Positions 16,501 to 45,419 of a DNA stretch of 53,796 nt are shown piece after piece. The stretch's first letter is position 1, and every line of letters starts with the position of its first letter. The stretch is from positions 1,726,592 through 1,780,387 of the forward strand of contig FN649740.1 of the NCBI GenBank assembly GCA_000310025.1, read 5' to 3'. The position numbers and the translations under genes are program-made. This stretch comes from Ectocarpus siliculosus (taxonomy: Eukaryota > Sar > Phaeophyceae > Ectocarpales > Ectocarpaceae). Below the pieces are notes generated by a model that worked only from the letters and a program-made list of their open reading frames with translations, made no database searches and had not been told where the DNA came from.

Positions 16501-16680
16501 ATCTACTCGCGAAGCCCGGCAGCCATACCACGCATGATGGCCGCCCGCCCTATTGGGGGGCGGGGGGCCAATCGTTCCCCCTAGTTCTTTTGTAAGCTGT
16601 ACCCGTTGTAGTGCCCGTTCCAAAGCAGAAAATCTATTGTTTAGGAGCAAACTGGTTCGGTTGAAGGGCTCTCATTGGCC
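13600..16680. other. Intergenic, no supportable gene
   Basis: About 3 kb upstream of the beta-helix gene start, with scattered open frames on both strands and no recognisable domain or exon chain. CAGCAG and TTG runs are frequent. The promoter of the beta-helix gene should lie just above 13555, but I see no motif that fixes it. Confidence 0.5.
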
Positions 16681-16772: not shown

Positions 16773-17031
16773 TAAAGGGATGCCCGAGTTGCGCGATCAC
16801 CTTCTCGGATCTGGCGACAAAATCCTTGCCGAAGCCAGTCCCTACGACCGTATTTGAGGTATAAGTCGATTTGCACGATTCCCTCTCACAGTCCCGGCAT
16901 TTATCTAAAACATAAATGAAAATGCCCGATTCCAACACTAAACTCAAGGTAACCTCTTGCCAACATCTACTGCATAAAGATTTTGGATTTTTGGACCATT
17001 AGGAGGCTTTATGGCGGTTGCAAGACATTTC

Positions 17032-17084
17032 ACTATAGATATTCAAATGTCTGAATATCTATAGTGAGATTTGAATATCTATAG
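17032..17084. repeat. Hairpin plus third half-copy of an ATAGATATTCA motif
   Basis: CACTATAGATATTCA and its exact reverse complement TGAATATCTATAGTG form a 15-bp stem with a 6-base loop (about 17032-17067). A third arm, TTGAATATCTATAGTGG, follows directly. It lies about 480 bp upstream of the recombinase ATG. It could be an element end or recombinase site, or simply a decayed insertion. Confidence 0.75.
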
Positions 17085-17337
17085 TGGAATATGAAAACAT
17101 GAATTCAAAACCATGTGTTGTAAGGACCCACTCACTCCACCCATCAACCCACCCACCACCCATCCACCCACTCACCTACTCACCCACACACCCACACACT
17201 CATCCACCCACCCATCCACCTATTCAACTTAAACCAACCGACCCACACCCACCGCCCCCAACGATGAATCGTGTCAAGTACAGACAGCTGGAGATACAGG
17301 TGGACGCCGATTCGTGGTGGAGAAATGGCGTCTCAGG

Positions 17338-17383
17338 TAAACATGCTTTGGCGGTATTTTTAAACATGCTTTGGCGGTATTTT
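17338..17383. repeat. 23-bp tandem duplication
   Basis: The block AAACATGCTTTGGCGGTATT plus a T run occurs twice in tandem, just after a GTAAAC donor-like site at 17337. Confidence 0.8.
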
Positions 17384-17564
17384 GTTCTAGCACCAGTCTA
17401 CGCACACAGCAACGAACGTTTGACGCACCAGCCAAAGGTCGCGAACCTTGTTTCTAGTCACGAACAAATGTCTCTGGTTCATGTATCCTTTCCCCATCAC
17501 GTGGTTCGCATAGAGTGCCGCAAGGCGGGGCGGAAGAAACCGTACGGCTACAGTTCCGGGAAAG

Positions 17565-20500
17565 ATGCCGACCGGAGCTGACAAGAAAGATCAAGACCAC
17601 GATCACTGGCGTAAAAGGGAGGCGGTGTGGGCAGGCTGGGGTGATCAGGAAGCTTATGACAAAAAGATGGCCGAGACGAAGGAGAAACGCGACGCTGCGC
17701 GTGAGGTGCACGAGGCCAACCAGAAGAAAAGACAGGCGGAGTTGGAGGCTGCTTCTTCAACACCACACGTAACCGAGAGGCAGGAGGAGGGTTCCGACGG
17801 AAACGTGAGTATGATCAGACGGCACACGGTCCGACCACACATCGGTTGCACTTGTGTACGCCACCGCCTTCCGCTCCGCCTTTCGCGCCGCCTTTCGATT
17901 AAGTTGGCACCGTCTCCCCATCTCTCTCACCCAAAAAAACAGTGTCAGTCCAAAAGGGCGGTGGGAACGGAGCAAGCGCAACATCATCCGGTTGGTGGAC
18001 GAAAGAGAGCGAAAACAACGGCCGCTGCGACTCCTGAAGACAATCGTCTCGAGGCTATGGACGTGGACGGAGTTGGTGGCAACGTTGGTGGCGACTTTGG
18101 TGGAGATGGCAGCGATGACGACGGTGGCAGCGATGGCGGCAGCGGTAGCGGTGGCGGCAATGGCAGCGACAGAGGGACAGGGAGCGGGGGTGGCCCTGTG
18201 CGAAAGGTCACGTACAAACAACGACCAAAGCTATACTATTCTACCAAAATAACCGCACGCCTGGTTGAGCCGTGGCAGGACGGAAGTCGCGAGTGGATGG
18301 ACAGCAAAAAAGAGTCGGGTGGTGAAAAAGCTCAGGAGAGGGGTGGTACGTTCTCCCGCGCAGCAAATGAACCCAGCGGAAACACTTCGATACCCGTCAT
18401 GGTCAAACTCCTGGGTGATGGCCTTTGTGCTGACCAGGGAGAGGGTGATATCGAGATCTCAGACGGGGTGTACTACAAGCGTGCCGAGTTAAGGACCTTG
18501 CAGTATTACTACGACAAGTCCTACGCGTTCGACCCGAAGAACATCGGTGTGGTTCTCAGCGAGACGGGCGTCAAGATCGATAGCCGAATCCACGCGGTGA
18601 AATCAGTCGATCACGGCAAATACACGCTGGAAGGTCGGGAATCCAGAATTACCCAGTGGGAGCTTCTGGAAAACCGGTGCGATGAGAGGGTGACACTGGA
18701 CACCGATCTTCGGCGGTTCATCCTCCATCTGGTGACAAAGTATACGGTCATGATGGGTTCGGTTGTACCGGCTCTCAGCGGCGTGGTCACTGGGATGCTC
18801 TGGAACCCGAACGATGCCATCGACAGAGCCAGTAGGAGTGGTGATGACACAGATCCGGAGAGAAAGATGAAGATTAGCGAGCTGATGTCAATCAAAGTGC
18901 GCGTGGATACTCTGCGGGACTTGTCGCTGGCTGTCTTCACCAAAATCCCCGTGGAAGCCACCCTCGGCGCAAACTTCTGGTCAGACCGACACGATGAGTC
19001 CTTGAAGGATTTCGCCGCACAACCTGGGTCGCTGAGCCAGCTGAACTTTCTAGGCGGGCTAGGATGTGTCGCCGACGACGATCTATTGTAGTACAGGGGT
19101 GCTTATTCACGGGAGATATTGTGAGAGGGGGGCATACCTTAGCACCGCCGGCAGAGCGTGTGCGTGGTTCCTGGGAAGAGAAGCTCAACATCGTCAGCAA
19201 GTTGTTGACGTGTGCTTACCGATTGGGCCGCCCGGGTAACCTCCTCGAAGCATATCAACCATGCACTCTGCAAGAATGCAAGCTCTTGCAAGAACAACAT
19301 AGCCAGTGGTCCGCCAACATCACACATAGCCTGAAAAATCTGAGCGTTCGTGATACCAGGAGCGCCAATGTCATCGACAGCGAGCTCGGAGGGGACATGT
19401 CGTACGCGCTGCGTTTCGCTCTGGCGCGATGCAAAACGTTTGTTCACAACGTGCCACCCGTGGTTATCGTTCGATGTGGGATCAGGGACGCGGCCAAGTA
19501 TGGGCGGGTAGGCCTGCACTCGTTGGACACGACGTTCTTCAGCCACGCAAGGTTTAGCCCCCGTCTTCTCGAGCACGTGCTGGGTGCCGACAGCAGCCAC
19601 GGTGCGGTGCAGAGGACCCTGGATCACTGCCATTCGTTCTTCCAGAACGCGAGGAATCTGCGAAAACACGTGGCAGCTAAAACCAACGGCGGCGTCGGAG
19701 ACGGGATAAAACTCCGTAAACAGAGGGTGCCATTGGTGGAGAACACACCGGAGGAGAGGGAGGAAACCATGGACATGTTTGTGGGGGCCATGTCCGCCAA
19801 CGGGTGCCAGCGCGTGATGGAAGCCATTGACAAAGTCGACCCCGGTTTCGTCGACTGGGGCCTGGACCGTCTCACGGAAGCGAAGAACGCTTCAACGCTT
19901 TTCGAATTGGACGACATCGGTGGAGAAGAGCACCTGCTCGGCAAAACGTCCGAGGGAGTCGCAGAGGGTGAGAAGATGGTGGTGACGCTGTTGAAGGCGC
20001 TGGACGAGGATGGCGTCGATTCAAAAGATTTCGTCCTCTTCAGCGTGGCTACGCATCTGGCAATGCTTTTCAACGGAGCCACCCTGCGCCCCCAGGATTT
20101 CTTCGGACTGGTTGGTAAGACCACCTACTTCAAACCGAGCGTCGGAAGAATGATGATCCGGCTCCCGGCAGAAGGGAAGCAGACAGAGTCCGCCGAAGAA
20201 TCTTTGTCGACAGTTTGCATGGAACACGGCATAGAGGGCGCAGAAGTTGTGCGGTGGTTGGCGGTGATGGCACTGGTTGGGCGGCCGTTCCTCAAGAACG
20301 CCAACGGAGGGGAGCTAGACACAAGATTCGGTCCGCTGGGAATAGATGGGAAGGCTCTCAGCCAAGGTGTATTCGGCACAATACTAGAGGAAACCGGGCT
20401 GGCGTTTTTCGGGCTGGACAACGTTGACGTCAACGCCCTTCGGACCGCCCAGGACACGCTGGCCGTCGAGCACGTCATCGAGCTTGGATTCACCCTGGAC

Positions 20501-21631
20501 GCCATGTGCCTCGATGAACTAGCTTAAGATCAGAGGACCTCGAAAACGGTGAGTCAGTTATTCGACATAGCGCTTTGTGAGCGTGTGTTCGTTTTCATTT
20601 TGTATGCTAGAAACTTTGGGAGCTAAAAACTGTCACACTTCCCCTGTTTTACACCACACCCACCCTCAGAACGTCACCGACATCTACAACGCGAGACGCT
20701 CCGACCCGGTTAGCGTGATAAAGAAGTTCAAGGAGGGGGAAGTGTCTTTCAAGGGGGGCATCAGGAGAATGCTGGACGAGCGACGTCTCCGGCTCAGCGG
20801 GGGATCGGACACCTCCTCGGATGCCAGCAGCACGACCGACGAAGACCTTGACGTTCAGTTCATCCGAGTCGAGAAGGAGCTGAAGTTGAAGACGAAGGAA
20901 CTCGAGATGGCGAGAGTGGAGGACGAACTCCGCCTCCGCAAGTCTGGCGCATGGTTCGTGACTGGCCCTGCCGCCGGCGCCGTACCTGCCACCGGCTCGT
21001 CTACTGATGCGGCACCCATGACTGGGACTGCTGCTTGCGCTACAAACATCCCTGCTCGCGCTGCTATCTCGAGCGTGCCCAAGAGCGCCGCACCCGTAAC
21101 TGGCTCTGCAGATGGTACTGCATCCGCTTCTGGCGTGGCTGTCTCGAAACAACTTAAGCAAGGCCGGGGCCCGTACAAAAAGGTGAGCGCATTTGTTCCT
21201 TTATACAAGTATTATGAGAAGAGTTGGGGTTAGGTGCGGGAACACACAACATTTTTGAGAAAAAGAACGCTAATGCTGTACAATACTCACGAATCAAATG
21301 CAGACGTCGCGGACAACCGACGAGGCCGAACGCGAAGAGGTGAAGGCGATGGTGAAGGCGGTTGGCGAAGCCTTCCAGCGGGCCAAGGTCAGGACCAAGA
21401 TCAGCGGCAAGAGAGACGCTGTTCATCACTACATGGCTTTGCCCAGCAACCAAGCTTCGAGGATTTATCTGGTTAGGTACTTGGTAAAGAACGACGTCGA
21501 ATTCGCCCCAGGGGTGGTACGTCAATAGCAAGCATTCCACGGCCAAAGGCTCCCTCGCGTTCGACAAACTAGTTGGTTTGGTACAGGACCAGGTCGAGGG
21601 TTTCCAGTGGAGTTCGTGGCGCGACATGTAG
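17565..21631 (+). pseudogene. Crypton-like tyrosine recombinase gene, multi-exon, disrupted
   Basis: Exon-like blocks: 17565-17804, 17943-about 19090, about 19090-20548, 20670-21182, 21304-21516 and 21587-21631. The acidic or Gly/Ser-rich N-terminal part is followed by a helical domain and a tyrosine-recombinase core. Arg I is in FNGATLRPQDFF (codon 20086), a Lys-containing beta-turn follows near 20177, Arg II is in NALRTAQDT (20441; the usual HxxR has Asn for His), and the nucleophile is probably Tyr in NVTDIYNAR (20685). Fourteen residues separate LA from that Tyr, as in LAxQ...TS...HY integrases. The C-terminal part is coiled-coil-like and then basic, ending FQWSSWRDM. Two defects: a 1- or 2-nt frame change near 19085-19095, and an in-frame TAA at 20525 just before the last exon of the core. 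An exon-like ATG block at 17264-17336 does not join in phase with 17565. The introns suggest a long-resident or host-adapted element. Superfamily confidence is moderate; the Crypton label is inference. Confidence 0.62.
17805..17942 (+). other. Stop-free 138-nt putative intron in the recombinase gene
   Basis: Starts GTGAGT and ends in a pyrimidine-rich CTCACCC...CAG. Its length is a multiple of three with no in-frame stop, so retention would add 46 residues without breaking the frame. The splice consensus is strong and the encoded Arg/His-rich peptide is unlike its neighbours, so I read it as an intron. Confidence 0.55.
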
Positions 21632-22670
21632 GATGAAGCACGCGAGGGAATGATAGTCGTACTGGAAGCGATCAAGTCCGCGCACACACGCGCCAGAGCA
21701 AGGGGTGGTGGCGATAAGGTTTTGTGTAGGTTTCAAAATAGTCACGGTGATACGGTGTATCGACTCTCGTGTCATTTGTAGCCTACGGATCGTTAGGGGG
21801 TGGCACACTTAAACACGTTGCAGGGATTCCAGCTACCGGAAGTAATTCGGTGGTTTCGTGCTTCACTCGTAGAAGAGATGAACGACAAAGCGACGCCCCC
21901 AACCCACCACGCCGGCTCTGCACGTTCCGCGGGACACGTGCGGCCTGAATGTTGCTGTTGTGAAATTGCTATGCTGGGAACCGTTTTCAGTTATGTGCAT
22001 ACAACAGCACCGAGATCAAGTCCTAGAGAAAACAGAAAAGTCCTGGACAAGCCCCGGTGAAAAGTCTTGGAGCTTGCGTTTCACATCGGAGATTTCGGGC
22101 ACCGTAACGCTCTCCGGCGTCCTGGGACACATCTACGGTGGTTAGAGGAAGCAATTTGGAGAAGCATCGGCCTTTTTCGGGGCGTTTCGAAACATGTCGG
22201 AATTTGGCCTCAGATCCATCCACTTTTAAATAACTACTGCCGCTCCGCGTGCTTTAAACATATGCATGAGAGTAACCGAGTGGAATACGCGAAGAGGCAC
22301 TTATTCGCACCGATATCTTTTTTGCTCCACGTCTGCACCGGTCATCCGAGCTGAGGGCGAAGGTCACGTCCTGCCATACCTGTATATAACGCCGCATCGC
22401 GCGCCGAAACGGAACATTTTTTGGCGAACCGGTGTTCCACAGAAGGAGGGGGAGGGGGGCGGGAAGAAGAGGAAATCGGGGGGTGACGGGAGAGGGAAAT
22501 CGGGCAAGAAAAAGAGGGTAGGTTGATGTTGGGCTCCGACGATGTTGTTCCTGGGGAGCGGGATGGTGTGGCGTTTCGTTTTATGCTCATGGTTCAATAC
22601 ACAGTTCGGAATATGTTCAACCAAGACTTTGGCAAAAACACGACACAGACAGCACAAACTTGAAAACAGT
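21632..22670. other. No supportable gene
   Basis: Downstream of the recombinase there are only short frames without recognisable domains. A Gly/Lys-rich block at about 22440-22520 (KKRKSGGDGRGKSGKKKR) followed by GTAGGT could be an exon of the same element family as the coiled-coil fragment at 23037, but this is weak. Confidence 0.4.
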
Positions 22671-22679
22671 AAGTTGGAC

Positions 22680-22905
22680 GGGTAGAGTTGCCAGCACGCA
22701 TTTTACGTGCCTGCGAAAGACGTGAAATTTTTGGAACAACTCACCCAGACTTCGAAAGGAAGTTTCGAGCTCGGGTACGTCCCAGCACGCCCTTTTACGT
22801 GCCTGCCAAAGACGTGAAAATTTTGAAACAACTCACCCGGACTTCGAAAAAGCAAGTTTGCAGCTCGGGCACGTGCCAGCACGCCCTCTACGTGCCTGCC
22901 GAAGG
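22680..22905. repeat. Tandem repeat, about 92-bp unit, two and a half copies
   Basis: CCAGCACGC starts at 22691, 22782 and 22876. Each unit continues with TTTTACGTGCCTGC, AAGACGTGAAA and ACTTCGAAA, and ends GAGCTCGG or CAGCTCGG. The units differ by scattered substitutions. Confidence 0.85.
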
Positions 22906-23225: not shown

Positions 23226-24353
23226 CCTTCCATGCGAGTTATTTGCCCGACACCCTACCTCTATCGAAGAGTGCTCAGGGTCCTTAAGACAGTGCCAAAG
23301 AAAGACAAGACCTACACCTTCGTGCCGATGGGCCGGGCACGACAGGCGTCAAGACAGGCGTCAACGCCTTCAAAACAACCTAATATCATGAGCAAGCATA
23401 GTGAACGAACATCAAACCAACCTAGACGGGCACAAATCATTTGTGGGCCTGAGCATCGCCTCGTACAGCTTAGCGCCACCATGTGCCGAGGGGCGGGCAA
23501 AAAAAGCGATAACACGCAACGCCCGACCAAAAACCATTCGTGTGACAGAACTACACTAACTACACGAGTCTGTACTCAGGGAAACAAATGCGGTGCCTTC
23601 ATCGTAATCGCGGCCATTCGGCACCTTCAATGCTCTGCGAACCCCACACAAAGGAGACAAAAAAGAAGTCGTCTCACACCCAATGTTCACTTCACCAACA
23701 CGGCAAGATCAACTGACTACACAATTACACCGTGAAGAGGCTGGCTCAGCTGGCCTTGGATTCGGGTCAGCAGCTTCGCTTGCTCGCATTGCACTTGCGC
23801 TGGGAGTGACAGTGGTGGAACCTTTGACGTCTCTTGACTTCCACTCCGACCTGTGTTGGGGCAAACCCACCTGTGTGTCGGGCAGTGGGAGGGTAGTGCT
23901 CGGGTGAAAACGCCAATAAAATACCGAGCGTCGAGTATGCAAGTAAGCGCCATCATGCCGTGCGAGGAAGGGGCATGTTGGCGATTGCCTCGGTTTTAGA
24001 GGGGGCGGGGCGGATGCCTGTACAGTCGATGATCATGCCTAAGAACTCTTGCGATGCAGACCCGAAAATGCACTTGGCGAAATTAACTGACAGGCCGGCG
24101 GCCAGGAGGCGCGTCAGAACTTCTGTCAGGGTCGCCAAGTGGTCTTCCCAGGTTGCACTAGCAATCAGAATATCGTCAAGCCAACTGAAGATACCAGGCA
24201 GGTGCCCGAGTGCAGATTTGACTCTCCTTGTGAACGCAGCTGGCAGCACACACAGACCGAAACCCGCACGCGTGAATTCCCAGAGTAAGCCGTCAGCGTC
24301 ACGGAAGGCCGTTTTAAAAATGTCCTTCTCAGCAATGCTCATCTGGTGGAAAC

Positions 24354-24875
24354 TGTTACCCCTATGGACGGGTAGACGTTGAGGGTAGCTTGTTGAACGT
24401 GTAGAACTTACAAAGCGCGTAGAACGTGAAATGGACGACCCAGATGAAGTCCGGGATGAGGCCGACGAACTTGGTGGAAGTCCTCACGTGCCCCGAAGAA
24501 GAAGTGCTGGCCAGCGGTAGATTCTTCGGAACTCGATGCGTTGTGCAGATGACGCTGTTGATGCTCCCCCTTGCTGTGATGTAACGAGAGCTGATAACCT
24601 GTACATGGCTACTACCGGCGCTCCTCAGACTTTCGTCAACGAGTTCCGAGGTAAACCGGGCATTTTGTCCAACGGCATTGCAGCGTGGGGTGGTCTTCTT
24701 GAAAAGTATCAAAACCACACGCGCGTACGGAAGGATATTTTGGTGAAGAAATTCCGGGCAATGACCATGGAGGAGGATGAAAACCCGGTTGTACTTTTGT
24801 TAGATGTGTAGCATATCCACTGAGCTATCAGTCAGCGCTGACTGATAGCTCAGTGGATATGTTGTGTATCTAACA
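24354..24875. mobile_element. 522-bp LTR-like insertion with GAAAC target duplication
   Basis: The segment starts TGTTACCCC and ends ATCTAACA, with GAAAC directly repeated at 24349-24353 and 24876-24880. Removing it restores a continuous gypsy RT frame (DLASG joined to FHQMS), which fixes both ends. TG...CA ends and a 5-bp target duplication are the hallmark of LTR retroelement integration. Internally, 24606-24808 (plus) encodes a gag-like peptide with AAWGGLLEKYQNHTRVRKDI and FRAMTMEEDENP, resembling copia gag. The right end is a perfect 50-bp palindrome. It could be a small non-autonomous LTR element or a collapsed copia copy. Confidence 0.8.
24812..24861. repeat. Perfect 50-bp palindrome without loop
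   Basis: Arms of 25 bp (CATATCCACTGAGCTATCAG then TCAGC) meet at AGC|GCT with no spacer. Shorter matches continue outward: TGTTAGAT on the left and ATCTAACA on the right. The two TGTTAGAT-CATATCC ends facing each other look like two identical element termini joined in inverted orientation. Confidence 0.95.
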
Positions 24876-25078
24876 GAAACCGGAAGCCAGATCGAGTTGA
24901 GAGAAGTATTTCATGCCTTTCAAAACATCGAAAATGTTCTGCATGTCCCCCAGACCTCCACTATCGTTTACGAGGTGTTTGTTGAGCTCCCGCCAGTCAA
25001 TACAGAGGCGGACTTTGCCATCCTTCTGTTTTTTTTAACGCGTCTGCTCTACACCACTCAATTTTCAACCCCGCAGAA

Positions 25079-25457
25079 ATGGATGAACAAACACGCAACG
25101 CTCTTGCAAGTGACGGTGATGGCGATTGTCGCGACCGCCGCCGTCACTGGAACGGTCGCCTCCGCGGGGGCGCTAGGATCTGTGGTCGCTTCGCTGGCAC
25201 TACCGTTCGAAGTGGTCGTGCTGGAGGAGGCTTACGAGTTTCTTGCGGAGGCCGGGGGAGAGGAGATGGAACGGATGCTGGGCGATGTCAGCGACGCCCT
25301 GGACCCAACGAAGCCCGATGTGGGCGCGCCCACGAGCCGTACACAACGTTACCGGTGCCGAATACCGCTCCATCCTCGACTTTATGGACACCAAGTGTCA
25401 AGGGTGGGATCGGCAGATGGGCGGCGTACCTCCTCCCAGGACGGGGTAGTCGGGTGA
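25079..25457 (+). other. Unrecognised hydrophobic/acidic open frame
   Basis: A stop-free stretch encodes VTVMAIVATAAVTGTVASAG and SVVASLALPFEVVVLEEAY, probably one membrane-spanning segment, then an acidic helix ending in DALDPTKPDVG. After about 25330 the more plausible coding frame seems to shift (NVTGAEYRSILDFMDTKCQG). I do not recognise the family. It lies between the two gypsy halves and may be captured DNA or a degraded exon. Confidence 0.3.
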
Positions 25458-25491
25458 GCCTACTCTGTCGCTAGTTTGGCGTGTTCTGTTG

Positions 25492-26799
25492 AAGGTAGAA
25501 GAACTCCGCACGTTTCTTGGTATGGCCGGCTACCTCCGACAGTTTGTGCCCAAGTATAGCTTGGTAGCCGCGCCCCTCACCGATCTGCTTCGCAATAGTG
25601 AATACGCCACCAAACGAGCACGTAAAGTGGCGATCACGTTGGGACCCGCCGAAGTGAACGCGGTTAAGTCGTTGCAAGCCGCCCGTGCCTCGCCCACCGT
25701 ACTCGCGTTCCCCGACCTAGAGAACACTTTCGAGCTCCACACCGACGCTAGCACAGTTGGAGCGGGGGCGGTTCTCATGCAAACCATCGATGATGTTCCC
25801 CGCGTAATCAGTTTTGCCAGCCACCGTTTCTCGCGAACTGATTCACGTAGGAGCCCGACAGAAAGAGAGTGCATGGGGGTGTTGTGGGGCGTTGATCACT
25901 TCAAGCCATACCTGTCAGGGCGTCGGTTCAAACTTATCGTCGACTGCTCCGCACTAACATGGCTGTTCCGAAGCCGCGACCTGTGCCCCAAGCTCCACCG
26001 CTGGAGCCTCAGGCTCATGGAATACGACATGGACCTTGTGTGGAAGGAAGGCGCACAGCACGTCCTTCTGGACGCTCTGTCGCGCCTCCCACATGCGCCG
26101 TACCCACAAGGTGATGTCGACGATTCGTTCCCCGACGACCCCTCGTCTAGCTCTCCTTCAGCGTTCGTTGGTCCGCGCGGGCCAGTCTTAGACGGAACCC
26201 GGCTCGCAGACATTGACCCCGATGTGGAACCCACGGTAGCAGTTGCATCAGAAGGCAAGGTAGAGCCATTAGCCACCCCCCCCGCCGCTAACTTGCTCGC
26301 CCTGCAAGCCCTACCCTTCGCCGACGTTGCGACCCTCGAAGCCACAGCCGCGCACCCCAGGCGCGGGACGAGACCGCGCACCCCGAACGTCCGTCTTCGC
26401 GCCCCGGGAGACGTGCCACTCCCACCAACGAACGCGTTCCGCAGAGCCCCGAAAGCAAAGCCACCACCGGTCGACCCCCTTGCTCCAGTGCCCGTAGCCA
26501 CCCGCGTCGACACGCCCGCCTCGTCGACACCGCCGGTAGACGACCTGGGTGAGGTGCTCTATGCAGGGGGGGAGGTACCCAGTCCGTCTCCGCACAATCA
26601 AGAGACACCGGCAGTAGACCGAGCCATCCTGACCCTCACCTCGTCGGGACTGCTAGCCCAACGCCAACGAGAGGACGATTATCTGTGTCAGGTTCGGAGT
26701 AGACTAGAAGGAACGGGTACCGTAGACCCTGGAGGAATCGACTGCAGCTACAGTTTAGACAACGATGATGTCATTCGCCACCAGGCATGTCTTCGGTAG
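25492..26799 (+). pseudogene. Ty3/gypsy RT-RNase H connection and RNase H, 3' part
   Basis: The frame starts at KVEELRTFLGMAGYLRQF, the connection that follows gypsy RT. RNase H follows, with Asp in FELHTDASTVGAGAVL, Glu in SPTERECMGVLWGVDHF, and DALSRLPH near its end. A long Pro/Ala/Thr-rich linker (about residues 205-370) leads to a segment that normally precedes the integrase zinc domain (AQRQREDDYLCQVRSRL). It ends in TAG at 26797, and no integrase follows. The upstream RT is on the opposite strand at 23958-25045. It is not functional. Confidence 0.85.
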
Positions 26800-27762: not shown

Positions 27763-29312
27763 TTACAATGGGATCTTAATAACGCATACATCACACGCCG
27801 ATTCGAAGCCGTCAGTTACGTTGCGCAGCCAATCACCACAACCACTATCCTCTTCGCTAGTCTTGGTCGCCTCGTTCCATACTTTGCCCCCTGGAACCGC
27901 TAACGCAAACACACAATTCTTGATTGGCGTGGCGTGGAGGAGTTTAGCACTTTCCCAGTACCGTTCTATATGCTTCCATTTGACAGCCTTCTTCCCCTCT
28001 TTAGGCGGCAAGCCTGCAGATTTCATTTGAAAAAACCACAAGGTCTTGCCGCCGCTGTCCACACCGAACGAATCAGCCGCTGCAAAATTCGGGCTTCCGG
28101 GCCTACAGTACGTCCCAGTGACGAGCGTATCGGGGAAACTGTTGCCTTCAAATGACTCCTTCCTCAGAAAACTAAACCTCAAATAATTTCCCTCGAGTAC
28201 AGACTCTATACTGCTATTTGCACTGCTCAGGATTCTCATGCCAAACCCTTGCTGCTTGCCAGGGCCCCCGATTTGTTCTTGTGCAATCGTTTCAAACCCG
28301 GCCGCGCGCTCAGCTACAACCTTGGCGCCCAAGTCGTCGTTTGCGAAAGCAGCCCGGACAAAGCTTCAAGTGCAGCAAGTTCCTTTCTGGGAAGCTCTCC
28401 TGAAGCCAAATTATGGGCATACTCACTCGCAAAATCGACACTGAACTCCTGGAAACCTGTTTCAGGTATAGGCAACAAATGCAAAAGTGCGTCACCACTC
28501 CTATCGGTCGAAATCTGGTCAGCGTAACCAAGCCCACGCGACAAAACCTGTTGCAGCACATCTAGATCCATATTTGAAGCCTCTTTCTGCATTTTACGGT
28601 AAACCTGCCCGAACTGTTTCGCATCGAACACTGCTCTAGCCACACCTCCAACCTTACCAAAGCGTTCCCGCACGTCGGTTTCTGGCACATGAGGGAAAAC
28701 AGCTCGCTGACATTCGAACAGCTCATCCACGCTCCACACAGGCATATAAAACAGACAGGAACCGGCTTGTTTCATGAACTCGTTAACTCTGCCCGTCCTG
28801 GGCGACACCAACACAACCGTTGGAAGACCCAAAATCTCCTCAGGCTGGTACTTCGGGTCACTCAAATACCAAGTGTTGGAGCCTTGCAGGTAACCAGCCT
28901 TTCTGAAATCAGAAATATCTCCTTGGGTAACCCCTTCATCACTAAACCGGTACCAGGCGCCTTTTCTTTCAAGAACGACAGTTTTTCCTCGACAGCGCAA
29001 CAGGTGCATGAGATAGAAACCAAACTCGGACTTGCCGATCCCGGGAGTGCCTGTCACGACAATATTCTTCAAAGTACCGTCGATAACACCTTCCAAGATG
29101 AGCTCCGACAGGTACTCGTAACAAGGACGGATGAACAGCTTTGATCTCAGCTCAGGCTCGCCCAGGAAAAACGTCCCGTCTGCTAGTTCCAGGGTGTTGT
29201 CGGCTACCACTGCTCTTGTGAGCACGGCGCCGAAATCCGCTAGAGGTTTAGGGACTGCAACGGGCCGACAATCATAATGGGGGGCGGCAGAAGAATGAGT
29301 GTTGGGTCCCAC
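27763..29312 (-). pseudogene. Crinkler/RHS-type P-loop NTPase with C-terminal PD-(D/E)xK-like nuclease, frameshifted
   Basis: The upstream frame (29312-28314) carries a linker, LFIRPCYEYLSELI, a Walker A loop GTPGIGKS, and VLVSPRTGRVNEF in the region of later NTPase motifs. It ends in the helical region EYAHNLASGELPRKEL. A different frame (28332-27763) continues into a nuclease-like domain with FGVDSGGKTLWFFQMKSAG, matching a D...[E/Q]xK restriction-nuclease core, and then CVFALAVPGG. In the Crinkler-RHS class such NTPase-nuclease proteins are known as transposon-linked or effector-like proteins. The frame change lies near 28350 with no intron consensus, so this copy is probably inactive, though a base-call error is possible. 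A pyrimidine-rich CTTCTCAG acceptor precedes the upstream frame at about 29311 and there is no ATG, so a 5' exon is probably missing. The gene is described as found; I infer no activity. Confidence 0.75.
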
Positions 29313-31700
29313 TGAGAAGAAACTATTCCGCGGCCGTCGACGAAAAGCAACCGGTGCATGGAAGGAAGACAGCGCTATGGACGGGCGTTTTCCTCTGACG
29401 AATCACGGAACTTCCTCTCGCTACTGCATCGACGTCACCAGACATGTCTTAAGTAGGCGACTAACAAAAAAAACAACAATCAGTCAAGCTCGAAAAAACA
29501 CGACAACACATCGGCAGGACGGAGTGGCCAGGGCGGTATTGGCTTCCAGGTCAGTATTTTGCCCCTCACCCATCATAAGGTACTTATTCACCCGTCTTAA
29601 GGTCCGTCTTGCATACACACTTGAACTGCAACTCCCGCGCGCCGAGTGATCAAATCGACACACGCAGCACCACTGGGATCAACCTCACTACTTTCGCTGG
29701 CAGACGACGAGGCCGACGAAGAACGAGGGTCAAAACGCGACTTGTTTACTGTTGCGTGTCATGTTCACCGCTTTGCTGACAAGTGACAAGACACGAGGAG
29801 TAACGGGACGACGGGATATGACACAGCCGGTACTCAAACATGGAGTTATCACACACCTGCGGTGGGCCATCACGTGAAGTTGCCGTCCAAGTCATCCAAG
29901 AAGTATGGCGGCCGATTGTGTAGTAGGCCCACGTGACAAGGAACGACGAAACGCGAGGCAAAGACCGCAGAGATCAGAGGGTGGCTCATTGTTTAAAGGC
30001 CCCCACAAAAGATGCGGCCACTGAACGACGAGTAGAAAATCGATCCAACACTCAACGCATGCGGAAATAAAAAAACCTCTAAACGGCTGTGTAACGATTG
30101 CACCTATTTCTCTCTCTTGAAGCTAAATTACAAACGATTGTCAACAAGAGCAATGATCACGATTTCGAGTACACCGCACGACCGTACGCAATAAAGTTCG
30201 ATGACGATCAAGTCGGCGGGAAGACAAACAAAATCCGTAGAAGAAATGCGGCGGATTTTGGGCCTATATTTCGTTGAACAAGTCCCACGGATTGTTCCAA
30301 CGGATTGGTCTTTGAGACGACCACGCCGCGAAAAAACGTAACCTATGCCAAAACAGAGTTGCTGCGGACACGCTCAGAGGTATGGAGCACACGCTCATGT
30401 GTTGAGTACGTACACAACAACTACCGACGCATATGTCGTTCGACCGAACGCGCAAGACGATTGACAAACCTGGACCCTCCGTATTGCTACCAACACTTTT
30501 CTCCCAGACAATCTCCACTGATGGAAGAGGTACGAGCAAACCCAGCTACCGTCCTAGCCAGCCAGGGAATGGAAGAAGGGACCCTTGGCGATGGAATTGC
30601 AAGGGAGTATGGACACGATGCTCTGATCCTGATTTTTGTTTTTAATAATCACGCCAACAAACGCACCACCAGCGGGGGTACAACACGCAGCTCCTCGGTG
30701 ATACAACACATGATTCTCTTTTGCGAACTCGACGAGAAATGCAGCCGGCAGGGTGCGTGCGGTAAGGGCATTGAGTGGGGGTCATCTTCGACGAAACATA
30801 TGAAGCCAAGGAAGCATCCTGACCAGATGAAAACGAAACAATACAAAACAAAACAAAACAAAACAAAAAACAGGCGCAGGGTTCCAGCCAGAGCCACACG
30901 GTCGGGGCCCTTTCCACTCAGCCCCATATGTCATGACTTCCTTGATTCGTGCCTTCAATTCTATCGCGGTATGCGGTCAGCTTTCCTCCTCCCACAATCA
31001 ATAATCACGCCTGAATGAGCCCTGCCCCTAAAATGACGGTTCGTTTTCGCGGGCCTCAACGGTATGGTGTGGAGTATTATCATCATGCGTAAGGACTAAC
31101 GCCCCCCACTCATTTATGGATTCGCGTGTCGACCAACACTCTCTCACGCATCTTGGGACTCGCTCACCTCACTAAGCCGCGAAAAAAAAAAAAAAAAGCC
31201 CAAGGACGAACCTACCACTGCTGGGTCTTGTTGCAGCACCAGCTTGAGCTCCTACGCCCCCCTGCACATGATGTGAGGATTACTACATCCGTAGTGTTAG
31301 ATATACTCGCAGCAGTGTCTGGTCGTGAGGATCCCAGGGGGATACGTGTTGGTAATTTCGTGTGTTATAGGGTACCACCGGTGCAGTCACGGGGACCCTT
31401 TTGGCGTGGCGGATGTGATGAGGCTTGCGTGCGTGCAGCTCACTTCCTCTCTCTCTCCACCACCACCACCGTCTCTCTCCAATCAAGTTTCCTTCTCCCA
31501 CTCTCTCTCCAACTCTCTCTCAATCTCTCTCTCTCGACCTAACACGGCCGACTACCCAGTGCCCCAAGTAACGTCCAGAACGTGCTTGCTGCACCACGCG
31601 TAGTTTACCTTTCACACTAGTGCGATATCACGGTATCTGCGCGCGGGCGTAGCCATCCGGGGGTTGTGCAGTCACGCGCAATCGGTAGACTCCCACAACA
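29313..31700. other. No supportable gene
   Basis: 2.4 kb with short frames only. A 5' LTR for the copia relic should lie here if it existed, but I find no TG...CA unit repeated downstream of 36300 and no tRNA-primer site near 31700. Confidence 0.45.
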
Positions 31701-31709
31701 CCAAACATC

Positions 31710-34700
31710 ATGGAGGACATCGACCTCTCCGCCCTCAGCGGGGAAGAGCTACAACAAAAAGTGGAGGAGATCGTCCAGCAACGAGTGCAAGCCGAACTCG
31801 AAGCCAACAGGATCAACGAGGGTGAAGTCACCATTGCCCAACCACCAGCCGGCAACCCAGCCACTCCAACCGGCAACCCAGTCCCACCTACTGGCAACCA
31901 ACCATCACCCTCCAGCCAGGGTACACCAGCCACATTCAACGACCCCAGCAGCGTCGCACACATCGTGGCGCAAGCGGCCAAGGCGACAGCTGAGGCCATC
32001 GCTCAACAACAGGGCTTTGCCCGCTCAGGCACGATGCGTGTCAATCCAGGCTCAGAAATCGAACCTTGGCTTGGTAGTGTAAAGAAGGAGCAGGACTTGT
32101 ACAATATGTTTGATATTTTTCGTGGTAAGATGATTTCATATTTTCAGGAGGAGGGTGTGCATGATGCGTTGGATTTGGAGGTCGAGGTCAAGGTCGGGAA
32201 GAGGGGTGTGAATGTAGGAGACCTTCGGAGACTTTTTGGAAATGAAGTGGTAGACAAGTCTTTCAAACTGTGGAATATCCTCATAAGCAAGGTTATGTAT
32301 CCCCCGATTCAGAGCTTGATTCTGGCGTGTGAGAGTCCCCAAAAGGGGGTGGAAAATAGTGACCGAGTTCTATCAGGAGAAAAAGCAGTCAGAAAAGTCG
32401 AGGTTGGAGCAGGACTGGAAGGAGTTGGAGATGAAAGAGTCCGAGAGTCCACAGGATTACATTGCCCGCTCAGAGGCCCTTCGCCTGCGTCTCGCATCTG
32501 TAGGCACGATTAAGGATGAAACAGATGCCAACAAAGACATTGCTCGTGGCCTTCCCTCTTCATTGTATGCCGTGAAAAAAGGAATACTGCTTGCCCATGA
32601 TGTCCTGACGTTGCGTACCCTTGAGACTGTGGTGAGGGACGCCCACGTGGAGATGGAGCGGGAGAGGAGCAAGGGGGAGAGGCGCGAGGTGGAGCTCACT
32701 CTCGCCGCGTCCGGCATGGGTCGGCACGGCGGGGGCAGTGGGGGGGCATCCTGGGGTCAAGACGGCGGTCAGGCAGCAGCTGGCGGCCAAAATCGTGACG
32801 GAGAGAAAAAAAATAGTGACGTGTTCAACGACGACCCCGGCGGATTTTGCCGCTACCACCAGTCCGAGCTTCACACCAACGAGCAGTGTCGTCTCCAGCA
32901 GCAACTGCGGCGTGCGCGTTCGAGAGAGGGCGCCGAGGAACGTCGCTCGGGCGGGGGCAGCCGCGGTGGCGGCGGTAGCCAGCGAGGGGGTAGACCGCCG
33001 CCGGGACCCGGCCGCGGTGGCGGGCGATGGGTGAGGATAGAGCAGCAGCACCACACCGGTCATGGTGGCGGTGGCTGGAGCCAAGCCTCACCCCCCCCGC
33101 GACCTCTTCGTGGACGTGGGCCTGGTGGTCGTCTGGGGCGTCACCCGGGGGGTCGTGGGCCCGCGGGACGCCACAGCAGCGACGGGCGTGCCGAGAGAGA
33201 TCGGGCAGGGAGAGGCCCGGGGCACGCGCGTTCTGGCCACGGAAGAGAGCAGGCGTACGTTGTGTACTACGCCCACGATGATGGTGGCTACTACAAAGAT
33301 TACGGCAACTACGACGAAGGCTACTCCTACGACGACGGCTACCACGACGCCGGGTACGCCCACTACGCCGGCGGCGGGGACAGCTACAGCAACTCCTCCT
33401 CCGGGTACGAAGACAGCCGTTCATCTGACGGCGGGATCCACTACGTCTACTACCCTCCCGCCGGTCAAGATTCATCATCCGAGCAGCCACGTCAGCCCCC
33501 CCCCGCGGGCAGCAGCAGCACCGCTTCCTCCTCGTCCTCTGCCCCTTCTCCTGGCGCGCCTCCATCTTCGGGCTACCTCCACCTCTGCACGGCACAATCG
33601 GTGCCCCTAGGCAAGTCTCACCCCGAAGATTTTTTTGATAGGATAGGAGTGACGATTGGAGTAGAGTCTGCTGCATCTGCTTCGTCTCTGCTGAGTGTTG
33701 AATCTAGTGACGGACCGCCTGGTAGCGAAAGATGGGTAGCTAATTCAGGTGCAAGCAACAGTTTTACCAACAGTAGCCTACACATGTACGATCTGCAGGA
33801 GATCCCCGCAAATAGGAAGTATGTTGTCGTAGGTGATGGTCGACTGCTAGAAGTGCAAGCTATCGGTAGCATCAACCTTAGTTTCTTTCAGGAGGATGAG
33901 AACGGTGACAAAACGACGATGTGTGTTAAGCTGACTGACGTGTCTGTAGTAGAGAACCTGAGCTTCAATTTGTTTTCAACGCATGCAGTTTCTCGAAAGC
34001 AACAAATCCTGCACGACGAGCGTGGTGCAACCCTCCAAAATGGACTGCTATTTGCTAGGGAGGAAAAAGCGTCTGCAGCATATGCCATGCGCTTACCATA
34101 CGACCCATCTGCAACTATAGTAGACTCTTCTGCTTTGCCTGCATTCGTGACTGCCCCCGATTCCGCCCCCGCCGTTGGCTCCACGCGTTCCCCTCCCCAA
34201 AAAGGGGGCTCCGCGGAATCATTGGTGTCCGTGTTGCGTTTCCCTCCCGCTGACTCTGCTAGCGTAGTACCTTCGAGTGAGAGCGTCACGCCCGCTGGTC
34301 CCACAAGCGTAGTACCTTCGACTGATAGCGTCACGCCCACTGGTCCCACCAGTGTAGTACCTGCGAGTGAGAGCGTCCCGCCCGCCGGCTCTGCCGGCGT
34401 AGTACCTTCTTCGGCGTCCGAGTTTGTTTGTGTGGGTACTTTTCCGGGTATGGATCTTGGAGACACGAGTGTGCTCACCGACGAGCAGCTCATGGATGGC
34501 TATGATGACACCCCGTATCAAGAGTTTTTCCCCGCGTTTATCCCTGAGACTGATGCTGCGAATGTAGCTGCTGTTTTGGATAGCATTGATGGGGGTGCTG
34601 ATTTTGACTTGGGTGCGGCCGCGCTTGGCCCTGGTGCGTCCCCGTTTGCTCTTGGTTCGACTGAAAAGTCCGTTGACATCGACCGCTTCCACCGCTCCCT

Positions 34701-36300
34701 TGCCCACGCTTGCGAGCCCCTTTTGAGAGAAACCGCCCAGCAGAGAGGCATCGTGCTCACCGGCAAGCTGGAACCGTGCACGGACTGCATGAAGGCGAAG
34801 GGCAGGCGAGGGTCGGTGCCGCGGGGGCCGGGAGCGCGGGCGTCCAAGCCACTCGGGCGTGTTCACCTGGACTTGTGTGGACCGCTGGTGCCTTCCCTGG
34901 GCGGCAACCTCTACCTATTCGTCGCCGTCGACAGCGCCTCGCGGTGGAACAAGGTCTACGGTCTCCGGCGGAAGTCCGACGCGCTGGCGGCAACGAAAAG
35001 GCTGCTGGCGGACGTGGGGCGGTACGACCTCGGGCGCATCGAGTGTTTCCGCGTCGACAACGGCACCGAGTGGACCCGTGGCGACTTCCGGCAATTCTGC
35101 GACGACAACGGCATCGGCGTCGAGTTCACTCCGCCTGGCACTCCGAAGTACAACGGCGTCGTCGAGAGCGCCATCTGGCGGATTATGAAGGCCGGCATGG
35201 CCGCCCGCCGCAGCGCTGGCCGCGTGTTCAACGTCGACTTCGCCTCCATCCCCGGCCTCGACGAGCGCGGTGACCGTCTTTGGATGGAATCGGCGAAGTG
35301 GGCCGCCGACGCTCTTAACCAGTCGGCGACCAAGGCCAACCCCGGGCGGCGCTCACCGCACGAGATGTTCACCGGCGAGCAAGGGCCGTTCCGCGTGCTG
35401 CCGTTCTTCCAGCCCGGCTTCATGCGCGAGGATCGCCGCACCAAGCTCGACGACCAGGCCACCCTCTGCTTCTACCTGAACGGCGGCGACAACCACCCGA
35501 GCGGCACCGTCAAGGTCCTCAAGGCGTCCACCGGTCGCGTCGTCTACACCAACAACGTGTCGTGGGTGACGTCGGCGCCAGCCGGCGAGGGGGGTTCCGC
35601 TGGTATCACCGCTGCACCGACACCCCCCCCGTTCATGCCGCCGGTCGTCTCGATCAACTTTGGCCCAGCACCGACGCCTTCGACTGCCGCAACGCCGCCG
35701 CCAGCGACCACGCCGCCGTCCGCTCCCACGCCTTCACAGCCGCCCTCTGCCACTTCGCCGCCACCGTCGGCGACCCCCGCCCCTGGCCAGCCGTCTTCTG
35801 CCTCTTCGCCGTCACCGTTGGCGACCCTCGATCCAGACCAGCCGCCGCCGCCGGACCCCGCGATGCTCCCGGAGCTTCCTCCTCCCACGGTATTCCACAC
35901 CATGTGGAGATTCTGTAGGCATGTAAATACAACCCTTACAACAGCAGTGCGCGACAAGCATCGGCGGTGGTTGAAGTCATGGCCCAGACAGAGCTTGAGA
36001 AAACTACTATCACAAGGATTCCGGAGAATCGTGACGGGTGCCTCGTTCGTATTTGTCTTCACTTCTTTTTCGCAAACAAAGTGGTACACACGCGCGACCT
36101 CGGCGATTTTCAGAGGTGCCTTAGTGCGTGTAGGCAGCGGCATTGGACCGCCTGCGCCTCCGACTGTAGAGACATTGCCGTATCCCTCATCGCACCAAGC
36201 CAGTCAGCACAGATCAAAAGACAAGCAAATACTCCGGAGTATAAAACATTCACACGTTCCAGTGGTTCCACTCGCTGGCCGCCAAATACTCCCAACGTAG
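31710..36300 (+). mobile_element. Ty1/copia retrotransposon relic: gag, protease, integrase; no RT
   Basis: ATG at 31710 starts gag (MEDIDLSALSGEELQQKVEE). Gag changes frame at a CCCCAAAAGGGGG run near 32338-32350 and continues (KIVTEFYQEKKQSE, then RLEQDWKELEMKESESPQDY). A Cys/His knuckle-like CRYHQSELHTNEQC follows, then a long Arg/Gly- and Tyr/Asp-rich stretch. The protease motif is WVANSGAS, with Asn where DSGAS has its catalytic Asp. The integrase has an HHCC finger (FHRSLAH...CTDC) and the D-D-E set: HLDLCGP, FRVDNGTEW, NGVVESAIW. After VVYTNNVSWV comes a Pro-rich linker to about 35880. Then the expected reverse transcriptase and RNase H are absent; the frame runs 140 unrelated residues to a stop. 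It is 3'-truncated or internally deleted and cannot be autonomous. High GC in 32.9-35.8 kb contrasts with the flanks. Confidence 0.88.
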
Positions 36301-39686: not shown

Positions 39687-41690
39687 TCAATCCGGCACAT
39701 GTCGTGTCACTCGGTCCGTCTCTTCTCGTTTGCTTTCTTCCCTCGCCGTCTCGTCCGTCTCCTGCCCCCCTCCCGCCCCATTGGTTGTTGGCTTGTGGTT
39801 TCGTTTGAGCGCTCGTTGTCGGCTGGCCTCTTCTTCCTTCTCGTGCCAGGAGGTCATGAACCTCTCAGCTCCCTGCAGCACCGCCGCATGCCAGGGTACT
39901 CCCCCCTCCACCTTCGCGGCTTCCGTCCACCTTGACTTCGGTGCCGTGTCTTTCGGTACGGGAATTCCGAGACAACTTGGGTCGGTTTTCGTAGATCCGT
40001 GGTCGGCCCCGAAGGCCTTCAGGTCATCGAGCACACACTTCGGCCAGTTCTGTTCCTGTCCCCCCCTACGTGGCTTCTCCCCCCCAGCCAGCTCGCCGAG
40101 CATCAGTCGTTTCGGGAGTCGCCCGTCCGGCTGCCTTGCCAGTGCTCCCGCGAACAGTAGGCGTCGTTGTCGGATCGTGGCTTCAACGCTCTGGCATTCG
40201 ACCCTCTTCAGCGTCTGGGCGTACGAGAGCTGCCGGTAGGTGTCTTTCTTGCGCTTGTACCCGATAACTCGAAGGAGCAGTCGGTGGTGTGTCGACCGCA
40301 GCGTCTGATAGTGGCCGCTGAGTGGTGACCATGTCATGCAGCCGTACAGCAGTGCCTCCATCGCCTCCGCCTGGAGGAGGCGGATCTTGAGTCGGAATGG
40401 CGCTTTCGGTCTGTCGAAGAGCTCCTGGCCATATCGCCTGAGGCACGCCCACGCTCCTCTGCTCCTGTAGCTGATCTCCCGGGTGAGGTCGCCATGTTCG
40501 TTGACGAGGCCACCGAGGTACCGGAACTCGGTCGTCTGGGCGTATTTCTGTCCCGCGGCTTCGATAGCCAGTGGTGGAGGAGGAGGCGGGGGGGACTGTG
40601 ATGTTGCAGTCGGCTTGCCCTTCGCGCGCATCAGGAGCGTCTCCGTTTTCTTCTCCGACACCGTTAGCCCGAACTCTCCGAACACCTCAACGATGATGGT
40701 CATCATTCTCGCCAGTCCTTCTGCAGACCTCGATACGACGCCGGCATCATCGGCATACAGCATCCCCCATACTGCCCTCCGTACTCGGTCAAGGGGTGTC
40801 TCCTCCCCCCCCCCCGCTTCCGTCTTCCCCTCCTCCAAGCACACCAGATTCCGCAGAACAACATCATCCTCGCTGAATCGGATAACGACGACCTCGAGGA
40901 CCTCGGCGAAGAAGATGTTGAACAGCAGTGGGGATAGCACACATCCTTGTCGCACACCCTGTGTGACGAAGAACCAGTCCGATAGTTCTCCGTCGTCCAT
41001 GCGCACCCGGGCCCGCATTCCATCGTGGAATTGGCGGATGACTTTGATTAGCTTCGCGGGAATCCCGGCCCTGGCCAGCACCTTCCATAGCATCTCTCGG
41101 TCCACCGAATCATACGCCTTCTTCAAGTCGACGAAGCACATGTAGAGCGGTATTTTCTTTCTCCGCCCCAGCTCCTGGAGGCGACGCACGACAAACAGCA
41201 TGTCGACGGTGGATCGCCCGGGTCGGAATCCGCACTGTTCCTCCGGGAGGATGTTGTTGGCTTCGCAGAAGGCGCTTAGACGGTTGGTGATGATCTTGAT
41301 GGGAACCTTGCCTACGTGAGATGGTAGCGAAATCCCCCTGTAGTTGTTACAGTTGGACCGGTCACCCTTCTTGTACAGCACCTTGATGGTTGCGTCCTTC
41401 CACTCTTGGGGGATATCTCCTCCGTTCCACACCTTGACGAGGATGGTATGGAGGTGTCTCAGGACAATGGGTTCGTCGTCATCGATCTTGAGCAATTCGG
41501 CAGGGAGGGAGTCATGGCCGGGTGCCTTCCAGTTCTTGAGGCCTTTCGCTACCCGTGCCACCTCCTCGAGATCTGGCACCTCTCCCAACCGTTGACTGTC
41601 ACGTGTCGCTGGCCGCTGCGTCACTCGTTCGATGATGTCTGGGTTCAGGGTGGGGGATTTGGTGTTGAGTAGGGTGCTGAAGAATCTCGC
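39687..41690 (-). pseudogene. LINE reverse transcriptase domain
   Basis: The reading frame continues directly after the TGA with [19 protein letters not shown], then palm and fingers motifs through [14 protein letters not shown] and [15 protein letters not shown] Pro run ([15 protein letters not shown]) precedes the thumb. The C-terminus is Lys/Glu-rich. No other stop or frameshift occurs in about 670 codons, so the element is comparatively young. Confidence 0.88.
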
Positions 41691-43043: not shown

Positions 43044-43479
43044 ATTCCAGGTTGCTACCCTAAGAAGTTGACCCTGCTGTCTCTTTCGCGCGGCGCGCGC
43101 TGTTCTCTTAGCTAGCCTACGCGCCGCCCGACCCCTCCTTCTCCTCCATCTCCCCCATCTCCCCTTCTTTAGACCGGAAGAAGAGTTGATGGTTGGTCTG
43201 CCCCGTTGCCATGGGTTGTTATTGGGCGGGAAGATTCGCCGTTTGGTATCCCATGGTTGGAGGGGAAAAGGAGTTGGTTGGGAAGATTCCTGATGTGGAA
43301 ATGATAAAGATGTCGGTTGTCAGACCTTGGACCCCTTGACAGACAACAATCCACCAAACGCCTTGACAGACAGCCTTGACAAGCAACAAACAGGGGACAT
43401 ATAAGAATATCCCCGGTTTTGGGAAAAGCCATACAAAATCACTGAAAACCGAGATTTTTCCATATGTTTTTGGGTTACT

Positions 43480-45408: not shown

Positions 45409-45419
45409 GGCGTAGTACC

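Follow-up and report, generated by a model that had tools for sequence, protein, structure and literature searches.

Organization of the locus

The window, a stretch of 53,796 nucleotides of Ectocarpus siliculosus DNA, contains a repeated unit with a multi-exon gene whose core resembles that of the tyrosine recombinases (YRs). In the following, fam1a denotes the window's own family, fam1b and YR2 denote two related families in the same genome, and single copies carry C labels. The features are:

16968..21724, plus strand: repeated stretch, 85.4% identical to C483 over 4,800 aligned columns; this is the minimum extent of the unit, the element ends being unproven.
17565..17804, plus strand: proposed exon 1, with an ATG at 17565, a charged N-terminus and a phase-0 donor GTGAGT at 17805.
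17943..19090, plus strand: exon 2, coding for a large N-terminal domain; relatives of this domain are found at C36, C2, C11, C16 and elsewhere.
19080..19097, plus strand: frame change, where the length is unlike that in C483, C1 and C19.
19097..20524, plus strand: predicted recombinase core lacking its last helix; an open frame, with Leu-Ala (LA) ending at 20524.
20087..20089, plus strand: Arg I codon (L-R-P-Q-D), from direct reading.
20177..20179, plus strand: Lys codon of the β-hairpin (G-K-Q-T), from direct reading and alignment.
20432..20443, plus strand: N-A-L-R in the place of HxxR, with Asn at 20432 and the Arg II codon at 20441-20443.
20525..20527, plus strand: in-frame TAA severing the Tyr exon, identified by comparison with seven other copies.
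20549..20669, plus strand: phase-0 intron GTGAGT...CCTCAG, with its donor at 20549 and its acceptor ending at 20669.
20670..21182, plus strand: exon of the predicted catalytic Tyr (codon 20685-20687, D-I-Y-N), with a charged tail.
21183..21303, plus strand: proposed last intron (GTGAGC...TGCAG), from sequence reading.
21304..21631, plus strand: last exon, encoding a C-terminal module; a length lesion of two bases lies near 21515, and the stop TAG is at 21629-21631.
21632..21715, plus strand: second copy of the C-terminal module (EAREGMIVVLEAIKSAHTRARARG), with 82-85% DNA identity to C36 and C2.

Outside the repeated stretch, C19 matches another 56 columns to the left, at 16530-16585, and C36 matches weakly 27 bases beyond the right end (E 0.24). 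The Arg I, NALR and Tyr motifs of a tyrosine recombinase, which the original prediction had placed by eye, were confirmed by direct reading at 20087, 20432-20443 and 20685. Matches to the core frame occur at no fewer than 12 further sites of this genome, so it is more than a chance open frame.

Lesions of the window copy

The TAA at 20525 is private to the window copy among the eight copies compared; six of the seven others have a sense codon at this position, and in C483 it is deleted. Neither this stop nor the frame change near 19090 is shared by the sibling copies read. The claim of the original prediction that a single stop cuts off the Tyr held only in part: the private TAA does precede the Tyr, but there are also frame lesions near 19090 and near 21515, where the window copy lacks two bases relative to C483 and C1. 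As this two-base lesion adds to the other two, the gene has three or more breaks and is not disrupted by one stop alone. With its Tyr and C-terminus lost through the TAA and the two frame lesions, the window copy cannot cut DNA. When dN/dS was calculated against C483, the read frame gave 0.33 for 17943-19088 (1.1-1.2 in the other frames) and 0.58 for 19097-20524 (0.9-1.3 in the other frames). In the Tyr exon, all frames gave similar values relative to C483 (0.82-0.84), and relative to C1 the read frame gave 0.42 vs 0.84 and 2.1 for the others; the last exon was uninformative.

The intron before the catalytic Tyr

The original prediction included a phase-0 intron just before the Tyr. Among the eight fam1a copies read across this site, the window included, GT was present in all eight and AG in seven, the acceptor region having been lost in C1; this count leaves out C17, C19, C9, C23 and C15:162k, and the splice points of C36 and C2 were picked with the expectation known. 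With the intron removed, the Tyr of the window copy stands 14 residues after LA, as predicted, and the Tyr itself is retained in all eight fam1a copies read at that site. For comparison between families we used alignment A3, a MAFFT alignment of nine cores (five fam1a rows and four fam1b rows) from which C483, C1 and C5 are excluded. The distance from Arg II to Tyr was 41 residues after splicing in four of the five fam1a rows, and also 41 residues in all four rows of fam1b, which is unspliced before the Tyr. Judged by this comparison of copies, the fam1a intron between HxxR and the Tyr is real.

Predicted catalytic residues across the three families

Nine columns of A3 are invariant, including those of Arg I, Arg II and Tyr. 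Arg I is present in all nine rows and in seven of the nine readable fam1a copies; the two exceptions, C483 and C1, are close siblings of the window copy and have His at this position. Arg II is likewise present in 9/9 rows and in eight of nine readable fam1a copies, with Trp in C5. The hairpin Lys was found in the window, C16, C201, C5 and the fam1b rows, and its position is unsure in C36 and C2. The proposed substitution of Asn for the His of the HxxR box was seen in six of the nine readable fam1a copies; it is not fixed, however, since the other three have Tyr, Met and Thr, and in fam1b the first residue of the box is mostly His (five of eight copies, Asn in three). YR2 keeps the HxxR His.

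Probable kinship to tyrosine recombinases

Profile comparison with hhalign linked fam1a to fam1b (E 2.9e-22), fam1b to YR2 (E 4.9e-6, 45 columns) and fam1a to YR2 (E 6.3e-4, 99 columns), and when a wider fam1 alignment was compared with YR2, Arg II and Tyr were in register. The score of A3 against YR2 was 56.1, compared to 23.1 for the best of 200 column shuffles and 16.0 for the reversed alignment; YR2 against XerD scored 36.6, above all 100 shuffles (best, 28.4). Matches of YR2 to known models were obtained for PF00589 (at C36, 1.2e-4), the PHROG 1 integrase (at C16, 2.5e-4) and NCBIfam XerA/XerC, all of them below curated cut-offs where any exist; with Pfam and NCBIfam, YR2 at C16 and C213 reached only 0.03 and 0.01, and YR2 at C24 matched nothing.

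Direct comparison of fam1 with XerD remained at shuffle level (22.1 vs 22.4 for the best shuffle), as did fam1a alone (16.9 vs 22.3), and no signal was obtained by hhalign for fam1 and YR2 against three DIRS YRs and lambda Int. The window ORFs and the scanned fam1a and fam1b proteins gave no YR-type Pfam match, only weak unrelated ones, and a search with the window ORF of Pfam, PDB, phage and PHROG profiles gave no YR result. Against PDB profiles the YR2 profile found nothing and alignment A1 found four chains, none a recombinase; A3 had as its top chain the integrase 3nkh (E 0.32), barely ahead of unrelated chains. Scanned against prokaryote genomes, the YR2 profile gave no result, and an AlphaFold model of the window protein as a single sequence was uninformative (pLDDT 33.6). 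The predicted YR identity therefore stood by way of the shuffle-controlled chain and not by direct match to XerD: through fam1b, then YR2, then XerD, fam1a is very probably kin to the YRs.

Copies, neighbors and probable mobility

Six of seven fam1b pairs are 96.7-99.2% identical and the seventh 80.8%, and the YR2 pair C16/C213 is 98.9% and 95.1% identical in two pieces; identities this high are, at the level of sequence, a record of recent copying. In the two pairs read, similarity between recent copies ends at or near the ORF ends. Cryptons are characterized by terminal direct repeats of 4-6 bp without inverted repeats; when both ends of one YR2 pair and, for one fam1b pair, the right end were read by eye, no clear repeat was seen. 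Neither reverse transcriptase (RT) nor DDE transposase was found in the three proteins scanned from the unit 16968-21724 or in the scanned fam1 and YR2 proteins. A fam1 gene lies near YR2 at three of six YR2 loci, and in two of these the genes are convergent. A C48-like ORF is located upstream of fam1a at C16 (PF02902, E 0.015, below the cut-off). Protease-like ORFs occur upstream of fam1 at C36, C16 and C24, and at C2 beyond the opposite end in reverse orientation; by tblastn the C24 ORF did not match the others. Only three of ten loci of the C36-type ORF are at fam1 loci. With this varied placement, a fixed three-gene order was rejected.

Interpretation and alternatives

We propose, with a probability of about 0.6, that the gene in the window is a dead copy from a seemingly undescribed lineage of mobile tyrosine-recombinase genes. 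Sequence comparison establishes the chain that links fam1a to the YRs, the conservation of the splice site, the lesions and the many copies. Confidence is held at this level because part of the probability belongs to the alternatives and because His stands in place of Arg I in C483 and C1. For such an element to move, a fam1a transcript would first have to lose the phase-0 intron that separates the HxxR helix from the Tyr helix. By analogy with the YR superfamily, the spliced protein of intact relatives would then bind short sites at the element ends, and four protomers would assemble; Arg I, Lys and Arg II would hold the phosphate while the Tyr attacked it to give a 3'-phosphotyrosine link, and the element would exit as a circle and rejoin elsewhere. 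DNA cutting by fam1a, the circles, the choice of target and any role of YR2 are thus what we infer.

It is possible, if rather doubtful, that fam1a descends from a YR and no longer cuts, serving as a DNA-binding partner or regulator of YR2 or forming a domesticated or dying branch like the Crypton-derived DUF3504 proteins. The HxxR His is replaced in every readable fam1a copy, Arg I in two of nine and Arg II in one; what is absent is the box-III His of fam1b, YR2 has kept its HxxR His, and half of the six YR2 genes have a fam1-type gene nearby, all of which fits a loss of cutting. On the other hand, all five fam1a rows of A3 retain Arg I, Arg II and Tyr, and the Tyr is present in 8/8 fam1a copies read there, whereas the DUF3504 proteins, as described in the account of these elements, lost Tyr and Arg II (PMC3212892); moreover, the many dispersed and decayed copies are unlike a domesticated gene. 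An element of two facing YRs, a large fam1 (one branch spliced and His-less) and a canonical YR2, whose mixed complexes may split the cutting, seems unlikely; we know of no eukaryotic pair of two facing YRs, and none turned up in a literature search.

We consider it very unlikely that the genes belong to phaeovirus-like endogenous viruses with large DNA genomes, in which the integrase is a tyrosine recombinase. An ORF on C11 reads like a fibre protein, and tyrosine-recombinase integrases are among the features reported for endogenous viruses of Ectocarpus (PMC13236599); but viral-contig scans with a few short peptide patterns each for fam1a, fam1b and YR2 found no relative, in both pairs compared the similarity between recent copies extends only to the ORF ends or their vicinity, and the scanned window proteins are of retroelement or amidohydrolase type. 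Still less probable is a chance occurrence of YR motifs in some other multi-copy family: no YR model gave a direct profile match to fam1, but the shuffle controls for A3-YR2 and YR2-XerD were exceeded, fam1b and YR2 bridge the gap, and the Arg II-Tyr spacing is equal once spliced.

Comparison with known elements

We read the proposed mobile element as Crypton-like and of a new lineage, likening it to Cryptons by their published description. According to that account, CryptonS and CryptonF of oomycetes and a diatom are stramenopile YR DNA elements without terminal inverted repeats, and some carry a C48 peptidase gene (PMC3212892); the present element shares with them a YR DNA element in a stramenopile and, at C16, the C48-like ORF upstream of fam1a. 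Points of difference are the conserved intron between HxxR and Tyr in fam1a and the replacement of its HxxR His. GCR1_C (CryptonF), DUF3504 (CryptonA-like) and DUF3435 (Starship captain), which we take to be included in the Pfam copy searched, gave no match at E 10; the absence of the first two would speak against CryptonF and CryptonA only. XerD and the phage integrases (PF00589) are matched by YR2, and Arg I, Lys, Arg II and Tyr follow one another in fam1 as they do in these enzymes, but fam1 is far larger, has no significant direct match to them and in fam1a contains the intron. DIRS and Ngaro elements also encode a YR, and RT plus YR frames occur in this genome (L032-L034); in contrast, no RT-RNase H was found in the three proteins scanned from the unit 16968-21724, and neither fam1 nor YR2 has a profile match to the three DIRS YRs. 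Phaeovirus integrases are likewise YRs in brown algae (PMC13236599), but the scans of viral contigs gave no relative of fam1a, fam1b or YR2. The curated Ectocarpus transposon survey lists DIRS, and its main text makes no mention of Cryptons (PMC12477816).

If our reading is correct, a missing branch of YR-only elements with three related families would be added to a brown alga. DNA elements of this kind, with only a YR, are uncommon in eukaryotes. The range from His-bearing unspliced to Asn-bearing spliced forms would make YR function without the HxxR His testable, and raises the question of why an intron lies directly before the nucleophile.

The duplicated C-terminal module

The interval 21639-21715 was considered as a mere conserved element terminus, and this was rejected, as it reads as a duplicate coding module that is also present twice in C36. 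By eye, this interval seems better conserved in DNA than in protein sequence, and for this reason the module may also have a role at the DNA level.

Structure, copies and past selection of the recombinase-like gene

The window occupies C15:1726592-1780387 (C numbers denote contigs, and the gene copies on them) of the 189-Mb genome, and its decayed tyrosine recombinase (YR)-like gene was read as having a minimum of four exons: 17565-17804, 17943-20548 (whose frame changes near 19090), 20670-21182 and 21304-21631. When the core frame, 18998-20524, was used to search the genome, it matched at least 12 other places (at least 23 matches; all 24 candidates were scored), and we call this family fam1a. 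The C483 copy was 85.4% identical to window 16968-21724. Relative to C483, dN/dS in the frame as read was 0.33 and 0.58 in two long stretches vs 0.9-1.3 in the other frames; for the Tyr exon the frames were alike relative to C483, the value in frame relative to C1 was 0.42, and the last exon was uninformative. These comparisons by frame with C483 and C1 support past selection on the long exons well, and the evidence for it in the tail is mixed.

Direct reading found Arg I, Lys, N-A-L-R, the TAA, the intron and Tyr all where the original prediction had placed them. Across the splice site before Tyr, the donor GT was present in all eight copies read (window, C483, C1, C201, C16, C36, C2 and C5) and the acceptor AG in seven, the splice points of C36 and C2 having been picked with the expected place already in mind. 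Among these eight copies the TAA is private to the window copy; six of the seven others have a sense codon, and C483 is deleted there. At the frame change near 19090 the window copy differs in length from C483, C1 and C19, and near 21515 it is two bases short relative to C483 and C1. Asn in the HxxR place was found in six of nine readable fam1a copies (window, C483, C1, C17, C16 and C5); the other three carry Tyr (C201), Met (C36) and Thr (C2). C9, with N-I-N-R, is closer to the related family fam1b and was excluded from the Asn and His counts of both families. Two substitutions count against the YR reading: His replaces Arg I in C483 and C1, the window's close siblings, and Trp replaces Arg II in C5. 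All three copies are decayed, and the window's subfamily may have been failing already before the window copy arose.

Two related families

A search of the same genome with PF00589 gave four matches at E 0.01. Three belong to DIRS-like loci; the fourth, which falls below the cut-off, is a 647-amino acid frame close to the C36 copy. This frame led to six loci, a more canonical YR family that we call YR2; most rows have P-H-x-C-R and a Tyr box like L-Q-V-S-S-x-T-L-R-x-S-Y, and the C36 copy of YR2 carries a stop, and Cys for Tyr. Adjoining the YR2 gene at C24 is a 1087-amino acid open frame, named fam1b (jointly with fam1a, fam1), with the motifs T-H-I-I-R and L-A-R-H-G...Y, which the fam1 HMM picked up at 1.3e-30 in a search of frames from 15 loci. 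A genome search with it gave at least 37 matches (42 of 43 candidates scored). In the HxxR-Tyr stretch of C24 and seven more loci, the HxxR place is His in five, four of them nearly identical to one another, and Asn in three. Because three of these eight loci (C15:2444k, C25:3779k and C11) have a frame break, perhaps another intron, in the stretch from Arg I to Arg II, "unspliced" applies in fam1b to the Arg II-to-Tyr stretch only.

By eye in two alignments (A2, and A3 of nine fam1 cores), fam1a, fam1b and YR2 seem to have in common a His that follows the Lys hairpin and precedes HxxR, about 17-19 residues ahead of G-(x)-R.

Probable kinship to tyrosine recombinases

Four fam1b cores and five from fam1a (C483, C1, C5 and C17 not among them), aligned with MAFFT, had nine invariant columns, including Arg I, Arg II and Tyr; the 41 residues from Arg II to Tyr were gapless in eight of the nine, C2 being two residues shorter. 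Comparison by hhalign gave 2.9e-22 for fam1a-fam1b, 4.9e-6 over 45 columns for fam1b-YR2, 6.3e-4 over 99 columns for fam1a-YR2, and 7.8e-4 at 25% probability for YR2-XerD (score 36.6 vs a best of 28.4 in 100 shuffles). The nine fam1 cores matched YR2 at 9.5e-7, with a score of 56.1 where the highest of 200 shuffles reached 23.1 and the reversed control 16.0. Against an 81-sequence XerD alignment, neither the nine cores (22.1 vs best shuffle 22.4) nor fam1a alone (16.9 vs 22.3) was significant, though the nine-core comparison pairs HxxR with HxxR. YR2 proteins matched PF00589 at 1.2e-4 (C36), 0.01 (C213) and 0.031 (C16), the PHROG 1 integrase at 2.5e-4 (C16) and 0.05 (C24), and NCBIfam XerA at about 5e-4 (C16 and C36); C24 had no match to PF00589 or XerA. 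Profile comparison of fam1 or YR2 with three DIRS YRs or lambda Int gave no signal. The proposed kinship of fam1 to YRs therefore rests on a chain through bridging families.

Putative mobility and probable mode of action

Six fam1b pairs (copies on C84, C23, C25 and C16) shared 96.7-99.2% identity across the 0.8-1.2 kb compared, and C15/C25:3779k shared 80.8%. The YR2 pair C16/C213 aligned in two pieces, with 98.9% and 95.1% identity, over about 2.56 kb; the similarity starts 23 bases ahead of the open frame, about 175 bases ahead of the first ATG, and stops 6 bases past the stop codon. In C23/C16, a fam1b pair, similarity stopped on the right 6 bases short of the stop codon in C16. Terminal repeats were not evident by eye at the ends of the YR2 pair or the right end of this fam1b pair.

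Three of six YR2 loci have a fam1 gene or part nearby: a convergent fam1a gene at C36, a convergent fam1b gene at C24, and a divergent fam1a N-terminal part at C11. None was seen at C26 and C213 (about 1.5 kb viewed on each side) or at C16 (about 1.5 kb left and 7 kb right), and tblastn with three YR2 proteins at E 0.01 found no YR2 in the 53.8-kb window. As fam1 loci number a few tens in the 189-Mb genome, chance seems very unlikely to account for this proximity, which we treat as a lead, because transposons are prone to cluster. Our main doubt is that fam1a might no longer cut DNA and serve instead as a partner of YR2; the HxxR His is lost from every readable fam1a copy. Most likely, intact relatives would work the way Crypton-like YR DNA elements do, the window copy being dead. 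The literature consulted was PMC3212892, PMC13236599, PMC3627910 and PMC12477816. Cryptons go unmentioned in the main text of PMC12477816, and searches of the open-licence literature brought up, among the top matches listed, no paper on a eukaryotic two-recombinase element, a spliced Crypton or a brown-algal Crypton.

Reading frames near other copies, and further features of the window

On C11, a repeat-rich ORF (GTIYMGSINVTN...; L038:3694-4281, plus strand, L038 being a stretch of that contig) separates YR2 from the N-terminal part of fam1a; its sequence looks similar to a virus or phage fibre protein. Near fam1a copies, three further genome stretches contain related ORFs with a cysteine protease-like motif (L015:777-2246, L014:8707-9408 and L016:1397-2248); the C36 one matched the other two by tblastn at 3e-14 and better, and there are 10 loci in the genome.

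Other features of the window

22689-22904: 31-base piece, three times, spaced 92-93 bases, directly past the recombinase copy
23956-26796: remnants of another retroelement; reverse transcriptase frame minus, RNase H frame plus
28314-29402, minus: possible P-loop protein; matches PF07999 (retrotransposon hot spot protein) below threshold, at E 0.09
32320-36300, plus: Copia-type reading frame; integrase and beta-barrel domains, gag match just under cut-off
39690-43319, minus: LINE-like frame pair; endonuclease/exonuclease/phosphatase and reverse transcriptase
45192-47654, plus: probable host gene; amidohydrolase frames, split in two

A blastn self-comparison also revealed an exactly self-complementary stretch of 50 bases at 24812-24861.
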